A DNA stretch of 64,000 bases from Merdibacter massiliensis. GTDB taxonomy: Bacteria; Bacillota_I; Bacilli_A; Erysipelotrichales; Erysipelotrichaceae. The position numbers were made by a program, and so were the translations under genes. Below the pieces are notes generated by a model. It was given only the letters and a program-made list of their open reading frames with translations, had not been told where the DNA came from and ran no database searches. Shown piece by piece: positions 32,790-39,457 of this stretch. Within the stretch, counting starts at the first letter, position 1. The number at the start of each line of letters is the position of its first letter. The stretch lies in contig NZ_LT699727.1 in assembly GCF_900155395.1 (NCBI RefSeq), positions 124,001 to 188,000 on the forward strand, given 5' to 3'.

Positions 32790-34148
32790 ATGAAAATCGT
32801 AATTATCGGGGATGGAAAAGTCGGTTTTGCAATTGCTAAACAATTGAGTCATGAAGGTTATGATATCACGATCATAGAAAATAAACCGCAGGTATTGAAT
32901 TTAACAATGAATTTATTAGATGTTGTCGGTATTCAGGGAAATGGCGGCAATTACGATGTATTAAAAGAAGCAAAAGTCCATCAGGCAGATCTGGTGATTG
33001 CTGTTACCTCCAGTGATGAAATCAATATCATCAGCTGCTTATTAGCTAAAAAACTAGGAGCAGATCATACGATTGCCCGTATTCGCAATCCCGAATATGT
33101 CCATGGCATGCGCATGCTGAAGGAAGACCTTGGTTTAAGCATGCAGATCAATCCTGAACTGACTGCAGCAAGAGAGATCCTGCGCTCTTTGAGTTTTTCC
33201 AACGGCATCAAAGTCAGCTCTTTTGCAAAAGGAAGGATGGAATTAGCGGAAATCAAGATTTTTGAAGAAAGCCCTTTGTGCAATCAAACCATCCATCATA
33301 TCGACAGTGCTTTAAAATCTTCTATCCAATTTGTAGCCGTCCAACGCGGAGAAGAAGTAGTCATTCCTGAAGGCAATACCACATTGCAAAAAAATGATAA
33401 AGTTACGCTGACTGCCACTGCCAAACAGTTAGAAAAGTTCTTATGCGAAGTAGGTATCATAGAACATAGAGCTATTCATGAGGCAATGATCATCGGAGGT
33501 GGAAAGATTACCTTTTATCTTGCACCGATGCTGATGGAAATGGGAATCGATGTAAAAGTAATTGAAATCAAACGGGAACGGTGTGAAGATCTGGTAGAAC
33601 GGTTCCCTAAACTGACCGTCATCCATGGAGACGGAACGGATCATGAACTCTTATTATCCGAAAATTTAGAGGAGATGGATGCATTTATCGCGCTCACCGA
33701 TAATGATGAAGAAAATGTCATCATTTCCATGTTTGCTTCCAATCATGGCGTACCGCGCGTCTTGCCAAAAGTAAACCGTATGGCGCTTGGTTTCCTGTTA
33801 GAAAAACTAGGTTTGGAAAATACGATCACACCTAAAAATCTGACTGCCAATCAGATTGTACAGTACGTACGCGCCATGCAAAATACGCTAGGCAGCAGCG
33901 TAGAGTCTTTAACAAAAATTGTGGATGATCAAATCGAAGTCTTAGAGTTTCGCGTACGTGAAAATTGTCGGTTCATCAATAAGCCGATCAAAGAAATCCA
34001 GTTCAAAAAAGGAATATTGCTCAGCAATATCTTACATAAAGGAAAAGCTTCTATCGCAAGCGGCAGCTCTCGAGTTGAATTAGGCGATACAGTGATCATC
34101 ATCAGCCAGTTACAAGGCTTAAGGGAGATCAATGATGTTCTCGCTTAA
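32790..34148 (+). CDS. trkA: Trk potassium uptake regulatory subunit TrkA
   Basis: A 452-residue protein with two RCK units: GDGKVGFAIAKQLSHEG (NAD-binding, residues 7-23) with an RCK-C after it, then GGGKITFYLAPMLMEMGIDV (about residue 232) and a second RCK-C. It binds the cytoplasmic face of TrkH and gates potassium uptake in response to nucleotides. It overlaps trkH by 17 bases, so the two are coupled. SD GGGGACAGG. Confidence 0.95.
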   Translation: MKIVIIGDGKVGFAIAKQLSHEGYDITIIENKPQVLNLTMNLLDVVGIQGNGGNYDVLKEAKVHQADLVIAVTSSDEINIISCLLAKKLGADHTIARIRNPEYVHGMRMLKEDLGLSMQINPELTAAREILRSLSFSNGIKVSSFAKGRMELAEIKIFEESPLCNQTIHHIDSALKSSIQFVAVQRGEEVVIPEGNTTLQKNDKVTLTATAKQLEKFLCEVGIIEHRAIHEAMIIGGGKITFYLAPMLMEMGIDVKVIEIKRERCEDLVERFPKLTVIHGDGTDHELLLSENLEEMDAFIALTDNDEENVIISMFASNHGVPRVLPKVNRMALGFLLEKLGLENTITPKNLTANQIVQYVRAMQNTLGSSVESLTKIVDDQIEVLEFRVRENCRFINKPIKEIQFKKGILLSNILHKGKASIASGSSRVELGDTVIIISQLQGLREINDVLA

Positions 34149-35628
34149 GCGTCATCTCCATAAATTGAACTGGAAAATCATTGGAAGCATCATTGGCTAT
34201 GCTTTGATCATTGAAGGCTGTTTGCTCTTTCTTCCTGTAATCGTCGACTTTTTATATAAAGAAGGTCATGCCTCTGCTTATCTTTTTACCATCGTGCTCT
34301 GTTTCCTATTTGGCTTTGCTTTAGCCTCTTTAAAAACGAAGCATTCTTATTTTGCTAAAGACGGCATGTTCGCAGTCGGACTGACCTGGATCACCATCTC
34401 TATATTCGGAGGTCTTCCTTTCTTTTTCACCAGAGAAATTCCTTCTTTTGTAGATTGTTTTTTTGAAACCGTATCTGGCTTTACTACCACCGGATCCAGT
34501 ATCCTTACAGATGTAGAAGCACTGTCTCATGCGTCCTTGTTTTGGCGAAGCTTTACTCATTGGATCGGCGGAATGGGCATCCTCGTCTTTTTATTGGCAG
34601 TTGTTCCACGCTCCAATGGACGTATGATGCATATCATGCGCGCAGAAGCACCTGGCCCTGTCATTGGAAAGCTGGTTCCCCGGATACGGGAAAGTGCAGC
34701 GATCCTTTACAAGATTTATTTAGCGCTGAGCGCTTTGATGCTGCTTTTCCTGCTTCTTGGCGGCATGCCTTTATTTGATGCATTATGCACGACATTTGGC
34801 ACCGCTGGAACAGGCGGCTTTGGAATCAAAAACAACAGTATTGCTTTTTACGACAGTGTCTATCTCGAGATGGTCATTTCATTCTTCATGTTGTTATTTG
34901 GCATAAACTTCAACTTATTCTATTTTATGCTGATCAAAAATGCACATTCTGTTTTACACAATGAGGAAGTGCGCATGTATCTACTGGTAGTAACATTCAG
35001 TATAGTAACTATTTCACTCAACATTCAGTCTATGATGGATGGTTCGCTGTTATTATCGCTGCGCTATGCGATCTTTCAAGTCGCGTCGATCATCTCTACG
35101 ACCGGCTTCACAACTGCAGACTTTAGTCAGTGGCCCTTGTATTCAAAAACGATCCTGTTGATCCTCATGCTGATCGGTGCCTGTGCCGGCAGTACTGCAG
35201 GAGGTTTGAAAATCAGCCGGCTTTTGATTTTGTTAAAACAAACCAAACTGGACCTGCAGCGGCTGATTCATCCGCAAAAAGTAGATGTGATCACCATGGA
35301 TGGAAAAAAGGTAGACCATAACATTGTTCATCAGATCTGCAGCTATTTCTTTTGTTATCTTCTCATCCTGGTCATTGTCGTATTGATCGTTTCTTTAGAC
35401 AATTTCGATTTAGAATCGACCATTGGTGCATGCTTTGCTTGTTTAGGAAATGTTGGCCCCGGTTTAGGCATAGCGGGTCCATTAGGCAATTTTGCGTTAT
35501 TTTCCGATCTTTCCAAGATCACCTTGTCTTTTGCCATGTTGATCGGGCGGCTGGAAATTTACCCAATATTGATCTTTATAGCTGCATTTTTTCAACAAGA
35601 CAAGAGGAAATATGCCATGAAAAAATAA
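34132..35628 (+). CDS. trkH: Trk potassium transporter membrane subunit TrkH
   Basis: A 498-residue membrane protein with four selectivity-filter loops: SGFTTTGSSIL, GTAGTGGFGI, STTGFTTADF and LGNVGPGLGIAG, the four-fold glycine filter of Trk/Ktr channels. The helix pattern is continuous and the length normal. It imports potassium together with TrkA from the same operon. A terminator follows after about 10 bases. Confidence 0.95.
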   Translation: MMFSLKRHLHKLNWKIIGSIIGYALIIEGCLLFLPVIVDFLYKEGHASAYLFTIVLCFLFGFALASLKTKHSYFAKDGMFAVGLTWITISIFGGLPFFFTREIPSFVDCFFETVSGFTTTGSSILTDVEALSHASLFWRSFTHWIGGMGILVFLLAVVPRSNGRMMHIMRAEAPGPVIGKLVPRIRESAAILYKIYLALSALMLLFLLLGGMPLFDALCTTFGTAGTGGFGIKNNSIAFYDSVYLEMVISFFMLLFGINFNLFYFMLIKNAHSVLHNEEVRMYLLVVTFSIVTISLNIQSMMDGSLLLSLRYAIFQVASIISTTGFTTADFSQWPLYSKTILLILMLIGACAGSTAGGLKISRLLILLKQTKLDLQRLIHPQKVDVITMDGKKVDHNIVHQICSYFFCYLLILVIVVLIVSLDNFDLESTIGACFACLGNVGPGLGIAGPLGNFALFSDLSKITLSFAMLIGRLEIYPILIFIAAFFQQDKRKYAMKK

Positions 35629-35686: not shown

Positions 35687-36637
35687 CTAATGAAACATAT
35701 CTTTCTTGATAAAGATCCAAGTTGCAATTCCCATTGCAATCAAAGCCACGATCATTGGAGCAAGCCATGTTTGCGCCAACGGCAGCCCGTTTACATTCAT
35801 TCCATAAAAACCAAATACGATATTCGGAATAGCCATAACGATCGTGATGACCGTTAACACCTTCATGACGATATTCAGGTTATTCGAAATAACGGAGGCA
35901 AAAGCATCCATCGTACCGGATAAGATATTGGAGTAAATATTACACATCTCTATCGCCTGATGAATCTCGATCAATACATCGTCCAACAGATCTTGATCCT
36001 CTTCATACAATTTGATCAACTTTCCGCGCATGATCTTGTTCAGAACGATCTCATCGCTTTTTAATGACGTCGAAAAATAAACTAACGATTTTTCCAAACC
36101 AAGCATCTGGATCAATTCTTCATTCTTCATCGACTGATGCAATTTCTGTTCCGTACGAGATGACAGGCGGTCGATCTGGCGCAGATAAATCAAATAACGT
36201 TGTGAGATGCGCAAAAACAACAGCAATAAAAACCTTGTTTTCATATCCGTGCGTACACCGCGCACAACCCCGCTGGCCATGTCCTCAATATTCAAATTTT
36301 CATGTAGGCTGATCGTGATGACATACCCCTTCATGATAACGATACCTAATGGCAATGTCGTATATTGCAAGGTATTTTCATCATATTTATCCTCTCGCTC
36401 TTCCGCACTAGGATAATCAACGATGATCAATGTCTGATTTTCATCATCGTCATAATCGATATGGGAACTTTCTTCTTCATCTAACGAAGACTTTACAAAC
36501 TCTGGCAAAACACCCACTTTGTGAACCAAAAAATCAACTTCTTCATCACTTGGAGATACGGCATTGATCCAGCAGCCTGGTTCTGGCTGCACAATGTGTT
36601 TGGTTTCGTTGTCCAATGTCTTGTAAAACTCAAGCAT
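35687..36637 (-). CDS. corA: CorA family magnesium/divalent cation transporter
   Basis: A 316-residue protein. The long cytoplasmic helical domain (DRLSSRTEQKLHQSMKNEE, then ETMCNIYSNILSG-like helix) ends in two membrane helices (VLTVITIVMAIPNIVFGFYG, then WLAPMIVALIAMGIATWIF) joined by the conserved YGMN motif (YGMNVNGLP). CorA pentamers import Mg2+ down its gradient. A short leader ORF and alternative hairpins lie upstream, suggesting translational control. SD AAGGAGG is at 36,645-36,651. Confidence 0.92.
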   Translation of the reverse strand: MLEFYKTLDNETKHIVQPEPGCWINAVSPSDEEVDFLVHKVGVLPEFVKSSLDEEESSHIDYDDDENQTLIIVDYPSAEEREDKYDENTLQYTTLPLGIVIMKGYVITISLHENLNIEDMASGVVRGVRTDMKTRFLLLLFLRISQRYLIYLRQIDRLSSRTEQKLHQSMKNEELIQMLGLEKSLVYFSTSLKSDEIVLNKIMRGKLIKLYEEDQDLLDDVLIEIHQAIEMCNIYSNILSGTMDAFASVISNNLNIVMKVLTVITIVMAIPNIVFGFYGMNVNGLPLAQTWLAPMIVALIAMGIATWIFIKKDMFH

Positions 36638-36644
36638 TATTCTT

Positions 36645-36685
36645 CCTCCTTATTGACAGGAGGATTATTTTGCATATACCTCCTG
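36645..36685 (-). promoter_or_regulatory. Mutually exclusive hairpins over the corA ribosome site
   Basis: In the mRNA, CAGGAGG (36,679-36,685, inside the leader ORF), CCTCCTG (36,657-36,663, just after its stop) and AAGGAGG (36,645-36,651, the corA Shine-Dalgarno) follow one another. The middle segment can pair with either neighbour: 7 bp with the first, 6 bp with the SD. Translation of the leader ORF would decide which forms. Confidence 0.65.
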
Positions 36686-36739
36686 ATACTCATTTTTACT
36701 TTTATTCTTACGGTAATTCGCTTCGGGCTCAGGAGCCAT
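36665..36739 (-). CDS. Leader peptide ORF upstream of corA
   Basis: 24 codons encoding MAPEPEANYRKNKSKNEYQE followed by VYAK and a stop. SD-like AAGGTG lies 8 bases before the ATG. The alternating proline/acid start (APEPE) resembles the enterobacterial MgtL leader peptide (MEPDPTPLP), in which such a sequence destabilises ribosomes when Mg2+ is low. The ORF ends 27 bases before the corA start and overlaps a hairpin arm. A regulatory uORF is inferred from this arrangement. No homology search has been done. Confidence 0.6.
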   Translation of the reverse strand: MAPEPEANYRKNKSKNEYQEVYAK

Positions 36740-36767: not shown

Positions 36768-36776
36768 ATTATAACA
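36768..36776 (-). promoter_or_regulatory. Extended -10 promoter for the corA leader
   Basis: On the minus strand TGT-TATAAT (36,768-36,776), an extended -10; a GACATT-like -35 lies 17 bases upstream of the hexamer. The start would be near 36,761, about 20 bases before the leader ORF. Confidence 0.55.
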
Positions 36777-36826: not shown

Positions 36827-39457
36827 TCATTTTTCTTTATCCTGCCATTTTCGCAAATCCGCCAACGGCTGAGACAATCCATTTCCTTGGTAATCCAGCG
36901 CTCGCTGTGTCCCTTTGCCGTGTTCCCGCATCACTTCTTCATGAAAGCCGCGGGCAGAAATACGGATGGCACCATGACCGCCGGCTATCAATTGTTCCAA
37001 GCCATCCGATGTTGCTACCGTAACGCGATATTCTTTTGCTAAATGGTGTGTTGCTTGTTCAATATAACTGTCTGCCGTTTGTGCTGTCTTTGTATAAACC
37101 ACATAAATATTATCTATTTTTTGTACGCTGCCGTTTTGATCTTTGACCTTATACGCATCAAAAACAAGAATCAATGTACATTTGCGATATCCTTGGTAAT
37201 TGCACATTAGATTGATCAACGCATGACGTGCCGCATCCAGATCTTGATGAGCGGTCTCCCGCAGTTCTTCCCAATCATGGATGATATTATAACCATCGAC
37301 CAATACACATTCGGGCAGGAACGATACCGTTTCCATTTTTCTTTGCTGTTCATGTCTTTCATAGGTTTCACGGTCTTGTATCTTTTTCTTCTTTGACTTT
37401 GACCCATATGTTTTCTCAAAAATAGCTTGCAATTGTGCATCTTCTTTGTCCGAATCTTGTTTTTCTTTCAAAACACGTGGAAGCGAAACAACTGTCTGTT
37501 CTTCCTTTTTCTCATTGAGCTGGTAAGGAAGATGCATATATTTTTCTACTTCGTCCCAAGGTACATAAAAACCTGCTCCATGCGTACAGAAAATAGACCC
37601 GCATGGATGTTGCAAGTCACGGTCACAATCATATGCCTTTTCTTCTAAAACGGTTTCTGCATGCTGGCAGGGATGATAATTTTCAAATGTATAGTAGATT
37701 CTTCCCTTGCCTTTCGTATAAGAAGGCAGTTCCTTTGCACATTGTTGAATGCCGCACAGAGGCGCATTGCCTATGACTTGACTCATTCCCTCTTGCGCAT
37801 CCTTTAATTGAAATGTCCCGTTGATCTTTTCGATATCATAGATCACTCGTCCGATATTTTCTTGCGGTACTTCTATTCGAAAATTTCCATATGGTTCCAA
37901 TAAGATGCTTTTTCCACGACGCAATCCATGGCGGATCGCACGATAAACGGCTTCGCGAAAATCACCGCCTTCCGTATGTTTTAAATGTGCTTTCCCATTT
38001 AATAACGTGATTCGGATGTCAGTTACAGGAAAACCGCCAAGCACGCCGACAGGCTCTTCTTCCTGAATATGGGATAAGATCAAACGCTGCCAAGAGGGAG
38101 CCAAGTCCTCTTGTGCACATTGATTGGCAATCTGAATGCCGCTGCCCGCTGGCAAAGGTTCCAACATGAGATGTACTTCCGCATAATGACGCAATGGTTC
38201 AAAATGTCCGACACCTTCAATTGCTTCCGCCAAAGTCTCTTTATATAGAACACCGCCTTCATCTAAATCAACTTCCAGAGCAAAGCGTCTGACTAACTCT
38301 TGTTGCAATATTTCTCCTTGAATTTCCCCCATCAGTTGAACATGCAGCTGTTGCGTGCTGGAATCAAACTGCAGATGTAATTGAGGATCCTCTTGCGCCA
38401 ACTGTTTACAGGCTGTATATAGCTGAGTGATATCACCTCCTGCAACAGGATGCAGCTGATAGGTCATAAAAGGAGCCAGTGCAGGCTCAATTTTTTTCTT
38501 TTCAAACCCCAGTCCCTCTCCTGGATATAATGTCTGCACCCCTTTGATTGCACAAACCATTCCAGCAGAAGCAACATTGAGCAATTCAAAATGTTTTCCA
38601 CAATAGCGGCGGATCTGGTCTGCCTTCTCATCCTTCCCTATTTTTTCTTTGACTTTGAGCATTCCCCCAGTGATCTTTACAAATGTTAACCGATTTCCCT
38701 GTTCATCTTGATTCACCTTAAAGACACGTGCACCAAAATCATCCGGATACGCAGGCATTTTGGTATACTGGTCGATCGTATCCATCAATAAATCAATACC
38801 TTGCATTTTTAAAGCAGATCCGAAAAGGACAGGAAACACTTTCCGTTCTTGAATCATCTGCATGATCCTGTCTTCTGATACATGTCCGCAAGATACATAT
38901 TGTTCCAAAGCTTCTTCATCGCACAAAGCAATTTCTTCATCCCTGCGTGCAGGATCAAGATGAAAACAGATACAATGCGGATCCAGTTCTTTTTGAACCT
39001 GCAGTAAAAGCTCTTCTTGAGTCATATGCGTCAGATCCATCTTATTGATGAATAAAAAAGTAGGTACCTTGTATCGTTCTAATAAACGCCATATCGTTTG
39101 GGTATGCGACTGTACACCATCCAATGCACTGACAACGACCAGTGCATAATCCAATATTGCGAGCGTGCGTTCCATTTCTGAAGAAAAATCCACATGTCCC
39201 GGTGTATCCAACAAAGTATAGCCATTTTCATGATACGTGATATAGGCTTGTTTAGAAAAGATCGTAATTCCACGATCCGTTTCCTGTTGGTAAAAATCTA
39301 AAGCGGCATCTCCATGATCCACTCTTCCGCGTTTTCGAATAGCACCGGCAAGATACAATAAGTCTTCGCTCAATGTCGTTTTTCCAGCATCAACATGAGC
39401 AAGCAGACCTAATGTTATTTGTTTATTGCTTCCTATTTTCATTTTTGACTCCGGCAT
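36827..39457 (-). CDS. TetM-like ribosomal-protection GTPase fused to a YacP/Rae1-type NYN nuclease
   Basis: An 876-residue protein. The N-terminal two thirds is an EF-G/TetM-type translational GTPase: G1 AHVDAGKTTLSE, switch TDRGITI, G3 DTPGHVD, G4 NKMD, then domains II-V with a C/H-rich insertion (CQHAETVLEEKAYDC, then CGSIFCTHG). From about 715 it is a NYN/PIN domain (LVDGYNIIHDW, then LVFDAYKVKD, then TADSYIE, then VATSDGLEQ) like YacP/Rae1, a nuclease known in Bacillus to cut mRNA in the ribosomal A site. The fusion suggests a factor that enters the A site and cleaves or rescues. Whether it gives tetracycline resistance cannot be told. Confidence 0.88.
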   Translation of the reverse strand: MPESKMKIGSNKQITLGLLAHVDAGKTTLSEDLLYLAGAIRKRGRVDHGDAALDFYQQETDRGITIFSKQAYITYHENGYTLLDTPGHVDFSSEMERTLAILDYALVVVSALDGVQSHTQTIWRLLERYKVPTFLFINKMDLTHMTQEELLLQVQKELDPHCICFHLDPARRDEEIALCDEEALEQYVSCGHVSEDRIMQMIQERKVFPVLFGSALKMQGIDLLMDTIDQYTKMPAYPDDFGARVFKVNQDEQGNRLTFVKITGGMLKVKEKIGKDEKADQIRRYCGKHFELLNVASAGMVCAIKGVQTLYPGEGLGFEKKKIEPALAPFMTYQLHPVAGGDITQLYTACKQLAQEDPQLHLQFDSSTQQLHVQLMGEIQGEILQQELVRRFALEVDLDEGGVLYKETLAEAIEGVGHFEPLRHYAEVHLMLEPLPAGSGIQIANQCAQEDLAPSWQRLILSHIQEEEPVGVLGGFPVTDIRITLLNGKAHLKHTEGGDFREAVYRAIRHGLRRGKSILLEPYGNFRIEVPQENIGRVIYDIEKINGTFQLKDAQEGMSQVIGNAPLCGIQQCAKELPSYTKGKGRIYYTFENYHPCQHAETVLEEKAYDCDRDLQHPCGSIFCTHGAGFYVPWDEVEKYMHLPYQLNEKKEEQTVVSLPRVLKEKQDSDKEDAQLQAIFEKTYGSKSKKKKIQDRETYERHEQQRKMETVSFLPECVLVDGYNIIHDWEELRETAHQDLDAARHALINLMCNYQGYRKCTLILVFDAYKVKDQNGSVQKIDNIYVVYTKTAQTADSYIEQATHHLAKEYRVTVATSDGLEQLIAGGHGAIRISARGFHEEVMREHGKGTQRALDYQGNGLSQPLADLRKWQDKEK

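Follow-up and report, generated by a model that had tools for sequence, protein, structure and literature searches.

A proline/acid leader ORF and alternative RNA pairings upstream of corA in Merdibacter massiliensis and related bacteria suggest translational control of a Mg2+ channel

corA codes for a main Mg2+ channel and is often regarded as constitutive. In the stretch of Merdibacter massiliensis DNA analyzed here (64,000 nucleotides, referred to below as the window), the gene is preceded by a short ORF and by complementary segments that include the corA Shine-Dalgarno (SD) sequence. The locus raises the question of whether access to this SD is controlled by ribosomes translating the leader and, if so, which signal these ribosomes read. 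An earlier note on the window had listed a 24-codon ORF, the motif CAGGAGG within it, the motif CCTCCTG next to its end, and the corA SD AAGGAGG; all of them are present on the minus strand where the note had placed them (Table 1). In 24 of 24 relatives, a TATAAT or TACAAT box precedes the leader ATG by 29-37 nt, and the transcript therefore probably begins with the leader. A generic promoter scan at the locus did not find a -35/-10 pair.

Table 1. Features of the corA leader and neighboring elements (positions in the window).
Feature	Position	Strand	Remarks
-10 element TATAAT with TG extension (TGTTATAAT)	36768-36773	minus	probable start of the corA transcript unit
Leader-ORF SD AGAAGGTG	36753-36746	minus	AGGTG invariant in 23 aligned relatives
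Segment A GTATATGGCTCCTGA	36743-36729	minus	spans the leader start codon plus codons 2-4; partner is B; helix of the MFE fold
Leader ORF MAPEPEANYRKNKSKNEYQEVYAK, then stop	36739-36665	minus	24 codons; P-E-P-E near the start, basic residues after
Segment B TCAGGAGGTATATGC	36686-36672	minus	partner is A or C
CAGGAGG, within segment B	36685-36679	minus	
Segment C, CCTCCTG, anti-SD	36663-36657	minus	partner is B or the corA SD
Segment D, corA SD AAGGAGG	36651-36645	minus	pairs with C
Second small ORF MQNNPPVNKEEE, then stop	36637-36675	minus	TAA overlaps the corA ATG (TAATG); judged incidental
corA, CorA-family Mg2+ channel	35687-36637	minus	316 aa, YGMN motif; Pfam PF01544, E 4e-50
EF-G/TetM-like GTPase gene	36827-39457	minus	directly upstream of the corA leader (Pfam); EF-G domains III, IV, and C-terminus, plus a C-terminal YacP-like NYN nuclease domain
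trkA-trkH K+ uptake pair	32790-35628	plus	convergent with corA
FMN riboswitch RF00050	29695-29809	minus	101.9 bits

Alternative pairings in the corA leader

The 141-nt leader was predicted to fold with an energy of -33.6 kcal/mol, compared to -21.1 +/- 3.4 kcal/mol in shuffles (z -3.64), and was more stable than all of its 200 dinucleotide shuffles. The MFE fold combines helix A:B, its longest, with helix C:D, and corresponds to the predicted OFF state. An RNA switch consisting of four segments with three mutually exclusive pairings (A:B, B:C, and C:D) is strongly supported by computation. The two competing pairings of CCTCCTG on which the earlier note had built its proposal are part of this switch, while the longest helix, A:B, had been overlooked.

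Maintenance of the pairings was evaluated by comparing duplex energies of segments taken from the same species with those of segments taken from different species; hand-defined segments were used, since the MAFFT alignment placed C and D wrongly for several sequences. The within-species duplexes were more stable in each case: -17.3 kcal/mol versus -14.4 kcal/mol for A:B, -14.1 kcal/mol versus -11.4 kcal/mol for B:C, and -10.3 kcal/mol versus -9.4 kcal/mol for C:D, with none of 2000 permutations, which ignore relatedness of species, being as good for any of the three. Six of seven B:C pairs carried compensatory changes, with both sides altered. Compensation in A:B was also observed 5' of the start codon, as in TGATATG:CATATCA (L007), ACTATG:CATAGT (L009), and GATGATG:CATCATT (L019). 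Both pairings proposed for CCTCCTG, with segment B and with the corA SD, are thus upheld in relatives.

The leader peptide and its association with corA

A CorA scan of the genome collection yielded 80 loci. Upstream of corA in Erysipelotrichales relatives, an SD of the form (A)AGGTG is followed by an ORF that begins with M-(S/A/T)-P-(E/D)-P (24 loci). Proline at codon 3 is present in all 24 leaders and is encoded by every synonymous codon (8 CCT, 6 CCG, 7 CCA, and 3 CCC), and the equally invariant proline at codon 5 is encoded by 10 CCC, 13 CCG, and 1 CCA. Codon 4 specifies Glu or Asp in 22 of the 24 leaders. Glu or Asp occupies codon 6 in 15 of the 24, and from codon 7 on the 24 sequences vary freely. 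The leader stop is likewise variable, ranging in location from 5' of B (L016) to 3' of C. Codons 4 and 5 mostly lie outside the A:B helix, and RNA pairing therefore does not explain their conservation. The leader ORF is under peptide-level selection, and its expected conservation upstream of corA is borne out at the level of the peptide.

A DNA pattern describing the leader start had 34 matches in 295 genomes of Erysipelotrichales, versus none for the reversed pattern, so the combination of elements is not a chance find. Applied to the same genomes, a covariance model of the leader produced 40 matches with E < 1e-9. Of these strong matches, 37 were newly fetched, and each is followed directly by corA (tblastn E < 1e-56); the remaining three come from the window itself and two congeners and likewise precede corA. 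Weaker matches (E above 1e-6) were also fetched, and ten of ten precede unrelated genes and not corA. No similar leader was seen by eye in the regions read upstream of actinobacterial corA relatives (Collinsella, Olsenella).

Searches with Rfam 15 (4227 models, which may not include the gammaproteobacterial corA motif) returned no match to the leader of the window or to 20 leaders. The M-box, RF00380, had no match in the window or anywhere in the M. massiliensis genome, while the B. subtilis and L. lactis controls were positive; the idea that this corA is controlled by something other than an M-box agrees with this result. MgtE was searched for in the same genome and was not found. The genome has two CorA genes, the second of which, at G000:C23:324491-325222, is diverged (PF01544, 148 bits).

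These data bear on the possibility that the leader is a device made of RNA only, i.e., a riboswitch or a Mg2+- or temperature-responsive structure whose helices respond directly to the ion, with the ORF being incidental. The strength and conservation of the alternative helices fit such a device, and a corA motif of Gammaproteobacteria has been proposed as a riboswitch candidate (PMC6429828). Yet codons 4-5, mostly outside A:B, are kept as amino acids with synonymous third bases, the spacer outside of segments A-D varies in sequence and length with no compact conserved aptamer core, the Rfam match is absent, and leaders of other lineages are enriched in early acidic residues and proline in an unbiased test (see below). 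We consider an RNA-only device quite improbable.

Ribosome position and access to the corA Shine-Dalgarno sequence

To relate leader translation to the pairings, we used a footprint scan in which each leader codon in turn was placed in the P site and the RNA was blocked from ~12 nt on its 5' side to 15 nt on its 3' side. The output of the scan is the energy cost of opening the corA SD, obtained by thermodynamic folding with an assumed footprint. For the window, the predicted cost was 7.4 kcal/mol without a ribosome, 1.2-1.7 kcal/mol with the P site at codons 1-7, and 7.2-10.9 kcal/mol with the P site at codons 8-21. The means for 23 Erysipelotrichales followed a similar course: from 6.6 kcal/mol without a ribosome, the cost fell to 2.3-2.5 for codons 1-6 and then rose to 3.4 for codon 7, 7.0 for codon 8, and 9.2 for codon 17. 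The difference between codons 9 and 4 averaged 4.8 kcal/mol and exceeded 2 kcal/mol in 21 of the 23 leaders, while leaders with dinucleotide-shuffled spacers gave -0.06 to 0.74 kcal/mol and exceeded 2 kcal/mol in 10.7% of cases. The effect of an early ribosome was weak in L023 and L025. The zone in which the SD is predicted to be open spans the Pro/acid motif (codons 3-6) and closes just past it. As shown computationally, the position of a ribosome on the leader would switch access to the corA SD, and the modeling points to SD sequestration, i.e., translation initiation, as the likely output. The direction of the proposed effect, with an early ribosome freeing the SD and read-through masking it, agrees with this calculation.

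In the same 23 Erysipelotrichales, the mean opening cost was again ~2 kcal/mol with the ribosome at the leader stop (codons 22-25), which implies that efficient termination would give some corA expression too. This reopening, together with the TAATG overlap present in the window, could be taken to mean that corA is simply coupled to translation of the leader or of the second small ORF, MQNNPPVNKEEE, with no sensing involved. The second ORF is not conserved, however: most relatives lack its ATG, and its frame enters corA in L003; it was rejected as a coupling device. Nor is the geometry expected of coupling through the leader stop maintained, since the stop varies among leaders as described above, while the N-terminus of the peptide is kept. 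Plain coupling appears very unlikely, slightly more so than an RNA-only device.

We favor, with a probability of roughly 0.7, the reading that the leader attenuates corA translation in cis, with a leader peptide as its readout, and would turn corA on at low Mg2+. In the resting, ribosome-free state, A:B and C:D would form, the corA SD would be hidden, and corA would be off. A ribosome on the first leader codons would cover A, allowing B:C to form and the corA SD to be exposed. Once the ribosome moved past approximately codon 7, A would be freed and B would then be covered, so that C could shut the SD again. The proline and acidic residues lie exactly where holding a ribosome would keep the switch open. 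From the nature of the controlled gene and from the peptide motif, we infer that Mg2+ may be the signal, and that the ribosome may pause or drop off at codons 3-6. At low intracellular Mg2+, intrinsic ribosome destabilization at the Pro/acid codons would cause the pause or drop-off, which would be followed by re-initiation, and repeated initiation would hold A occupied and keep corA on. Alternatively to re-initiation, B:C formed while A is occupied may persist, since no ribosome passes through. At high Mg2+, ribosomes would elongate on and corA would be switched off. The earlier note had ribosome drop-off itself releasing the SD. While an early ribosome is indeed predicted to open the SD, early drop-off alone is not, as the ribosome-free RNA hides the SD through A:B and C:D; because this RNA is predicted to be OFF, drop-off without re-initiation (or without a trapped B:C) would be insufficient.

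Leaders outside Erysipelotrichales, known systems, and meaning

SD-led ORFs starting with M-x-x-(D/E)-P were found in 62 of 90 Oscillospirales corA upstream regions; the reverse strand had none, and shuffles averaged 0.75. Consensus starts were MSPEP, MSPDP, MSGDP, MNPDP, MSADP, and MTADP; most of these leaders contain one proline only, which always follows Asp or Glu at codon 4. The predicted cost of opening the SD was 3.1 kcal/mol with the ribosome at codons 1-4, versus 6.0 kcal/mol without a ribosome, and rose to 5.7 kcal/mol by codon 8. This position dependence was lost in shuffles, and switching was slight or absent in four Oscillospirales leaders (L147, L204, L207, and L212).

In a phylum-wide sample of Clostridia, the strict motif was present in 13 of 87 regions, and variant starts included MDDP, MDGSP, MDGAP, MDSGP, and MDSDG. 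When SD-led short ORFs were counted with no peptide criterion, 91 of 176 distinct corA regions from Clostridia contained one; the corresponding counts were 6 for the reverse strand and 15 for shuffles. In 79% of these ORFs, codons 2-6 include an acidic residue as well as a proline, compared to 6% in shuffles, and codons 7-11 of clostridial leaders are Lys/Arg-rich. MDGDP, MDDP, MDGSP, and MDGAP starts occur in L230, L233, L242, L254, L264, L268-L271, and L280-L283, and possibly represent a natural series of ribosome-destabilizing N-termini.

Long leaders of 170-215 nt with a GTG-started M-x-x-D-P ORF were observed in Oscillospiraceae (L071-L081, L138-L151). In these, A is GTGCGCC, B is GGCGCAC, C is a copy of A, and D forms the 3' side of a hairpin with a U tail. 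We suspect that they are a transcription-attenuation (intrinsic-terminator) version of the switch. The average predicted cost of opening the terminator was 6.5 without a ribosome and 5.6-6.5 with a ribosome at codons 1-13; L077, L138, and L139 are among the few whose terminator responds to the footprint.

The leaders from other orders also bear on what the ribosome may sense. The same position switch could be driven by translation of the proline codons, reporting charged tRNA-Pro or EF-P activity, as has been proposed for mgtP. The prolines at codons 3 and 5 are invariant in all 24 Erysipelotrichales leaders, and EF-P or Pro effects have been documented for Mg2+ genes of Salmonella (PMC5299641, PMC6460261). 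Most Oscillospirales leaders, however, keep a single proline, and one Pro codon by itself would sense starvation poorly; clostridial variants (MDDP, MDGSP) retain the early acids; and the shared feature is acid plus proline, with a Mg2+ channel as the controlled gene. A Pro-codon signal is unlikely, although it is the least improbable of the three alternatives, and a Mg2+-dependent leader-peptide readout remains our preferred explanation.

The leader had originally been likened to MgtL, whose EPDP motif causes ribosome drop-off at low Mg2+ (PMC11282234). Pro3-acid4-Pro5 of the corA leader is in the register of the early EPDP, and both systems, likened here by motif register and layout, have mutually exclusive leader structures with a Mg2+ importer downstream (mgtL of mgtA in E. 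coli and Salmonella; PMC11282234; PMC11552253). The likeness does not extend to the output, which is Rho-dependent transcription termination in the case of MgtL and, as predicted, anti-SD/SD pairing in the case of the corA leader; in addition, MgtL has an acid at position 2, where the corA leader has Ser, Ala, or Thr.

The nearest mechanistic match is mgtQ-mgtB of Salmonella Typhimurium, a translational switch between 1:2 plus 3:4 and 2:3 (PMC8092293). There, too, a short ORF with early acidic codons precedes a Mg2+ transporter gene. The segments correspond (1:2, 2:3, and 3:4, with region 1 within the leader ORF and region 4 being the transporter RBS), and a ribosome on region 1 leads to 2:3, a free RBS, and a translational output, which for the corA leader are predicted. 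mgtQ differs in its length of 8 codons, its intergenic position within an operon, and the P-type ATPase under its control, whereas the corA leader has an ORF of ~12-31 codons and a Pro-acid-Pro motif, is located at the transcript start, and belongs to another phylum. Region 1 of the corA leader also includes the leader start codon, and the likeness to mgtQ is one of anatomy, the peptides being of 8-24 residues.

Two other comparisons concern corA itself. corL is a short ORF 5' of corA in E. coli and Salmonella, with a reported Mg2+ response in E. coli (PMC11552253); it shares with our leader the presence of a short ORF in the corA 5' region, but has fewer Pro and acidic residues and acts through Rho. 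The published corA motif (PMC6429828) is confined to Gammaproteobacteria. The M-box (ykoK, RF00380) also provides Mg2+ control of Gram-positive transporters, but as a direct Mg2+-binding aptamer. A mycobacterial M-box with a uORF (PMC12810186) represents a different mechanism.

In the literature searched, whose coverage left subscription journals largely outside, we found no report of such a corA leader in Bacillota; Mg2+ leader peptides were described only in enterobacteria, and E. coli and Salmonella were the only bacteria in which sensing through unstable translation had been elucidated. The corA leader is widely distributed, and this distribution is apparently unreported. We lean, by a small degree, towards the view that ribosome failure on early acid/Pro leaders is a general bacterial means of Mg2+ sensing. 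Most corA genes of this kind in Erysipelotrichales, and many of those in Oscillospirales and other Clostridia, would be under such control, with a shared four-segment switch either inherited from a remote ancestor or repeatedly evolved, and MgtL, MgtQ, and CorL would be the enterobacterial members of a far broader class.

If this is true, a Bacillota counterpart with dozens of natural variants would make ribosome instability a widely used Mg2+ sensor. The PEPE, PDP, GDP, ADP, DDP, and GSP variants would provide a ready mutational series for the study of ribosome-destabilizing nascent sequences, and gut anaerobes like Merdibacter massiliensis, which has neither an M-box nor MgtE, would have a means of regulating corA.
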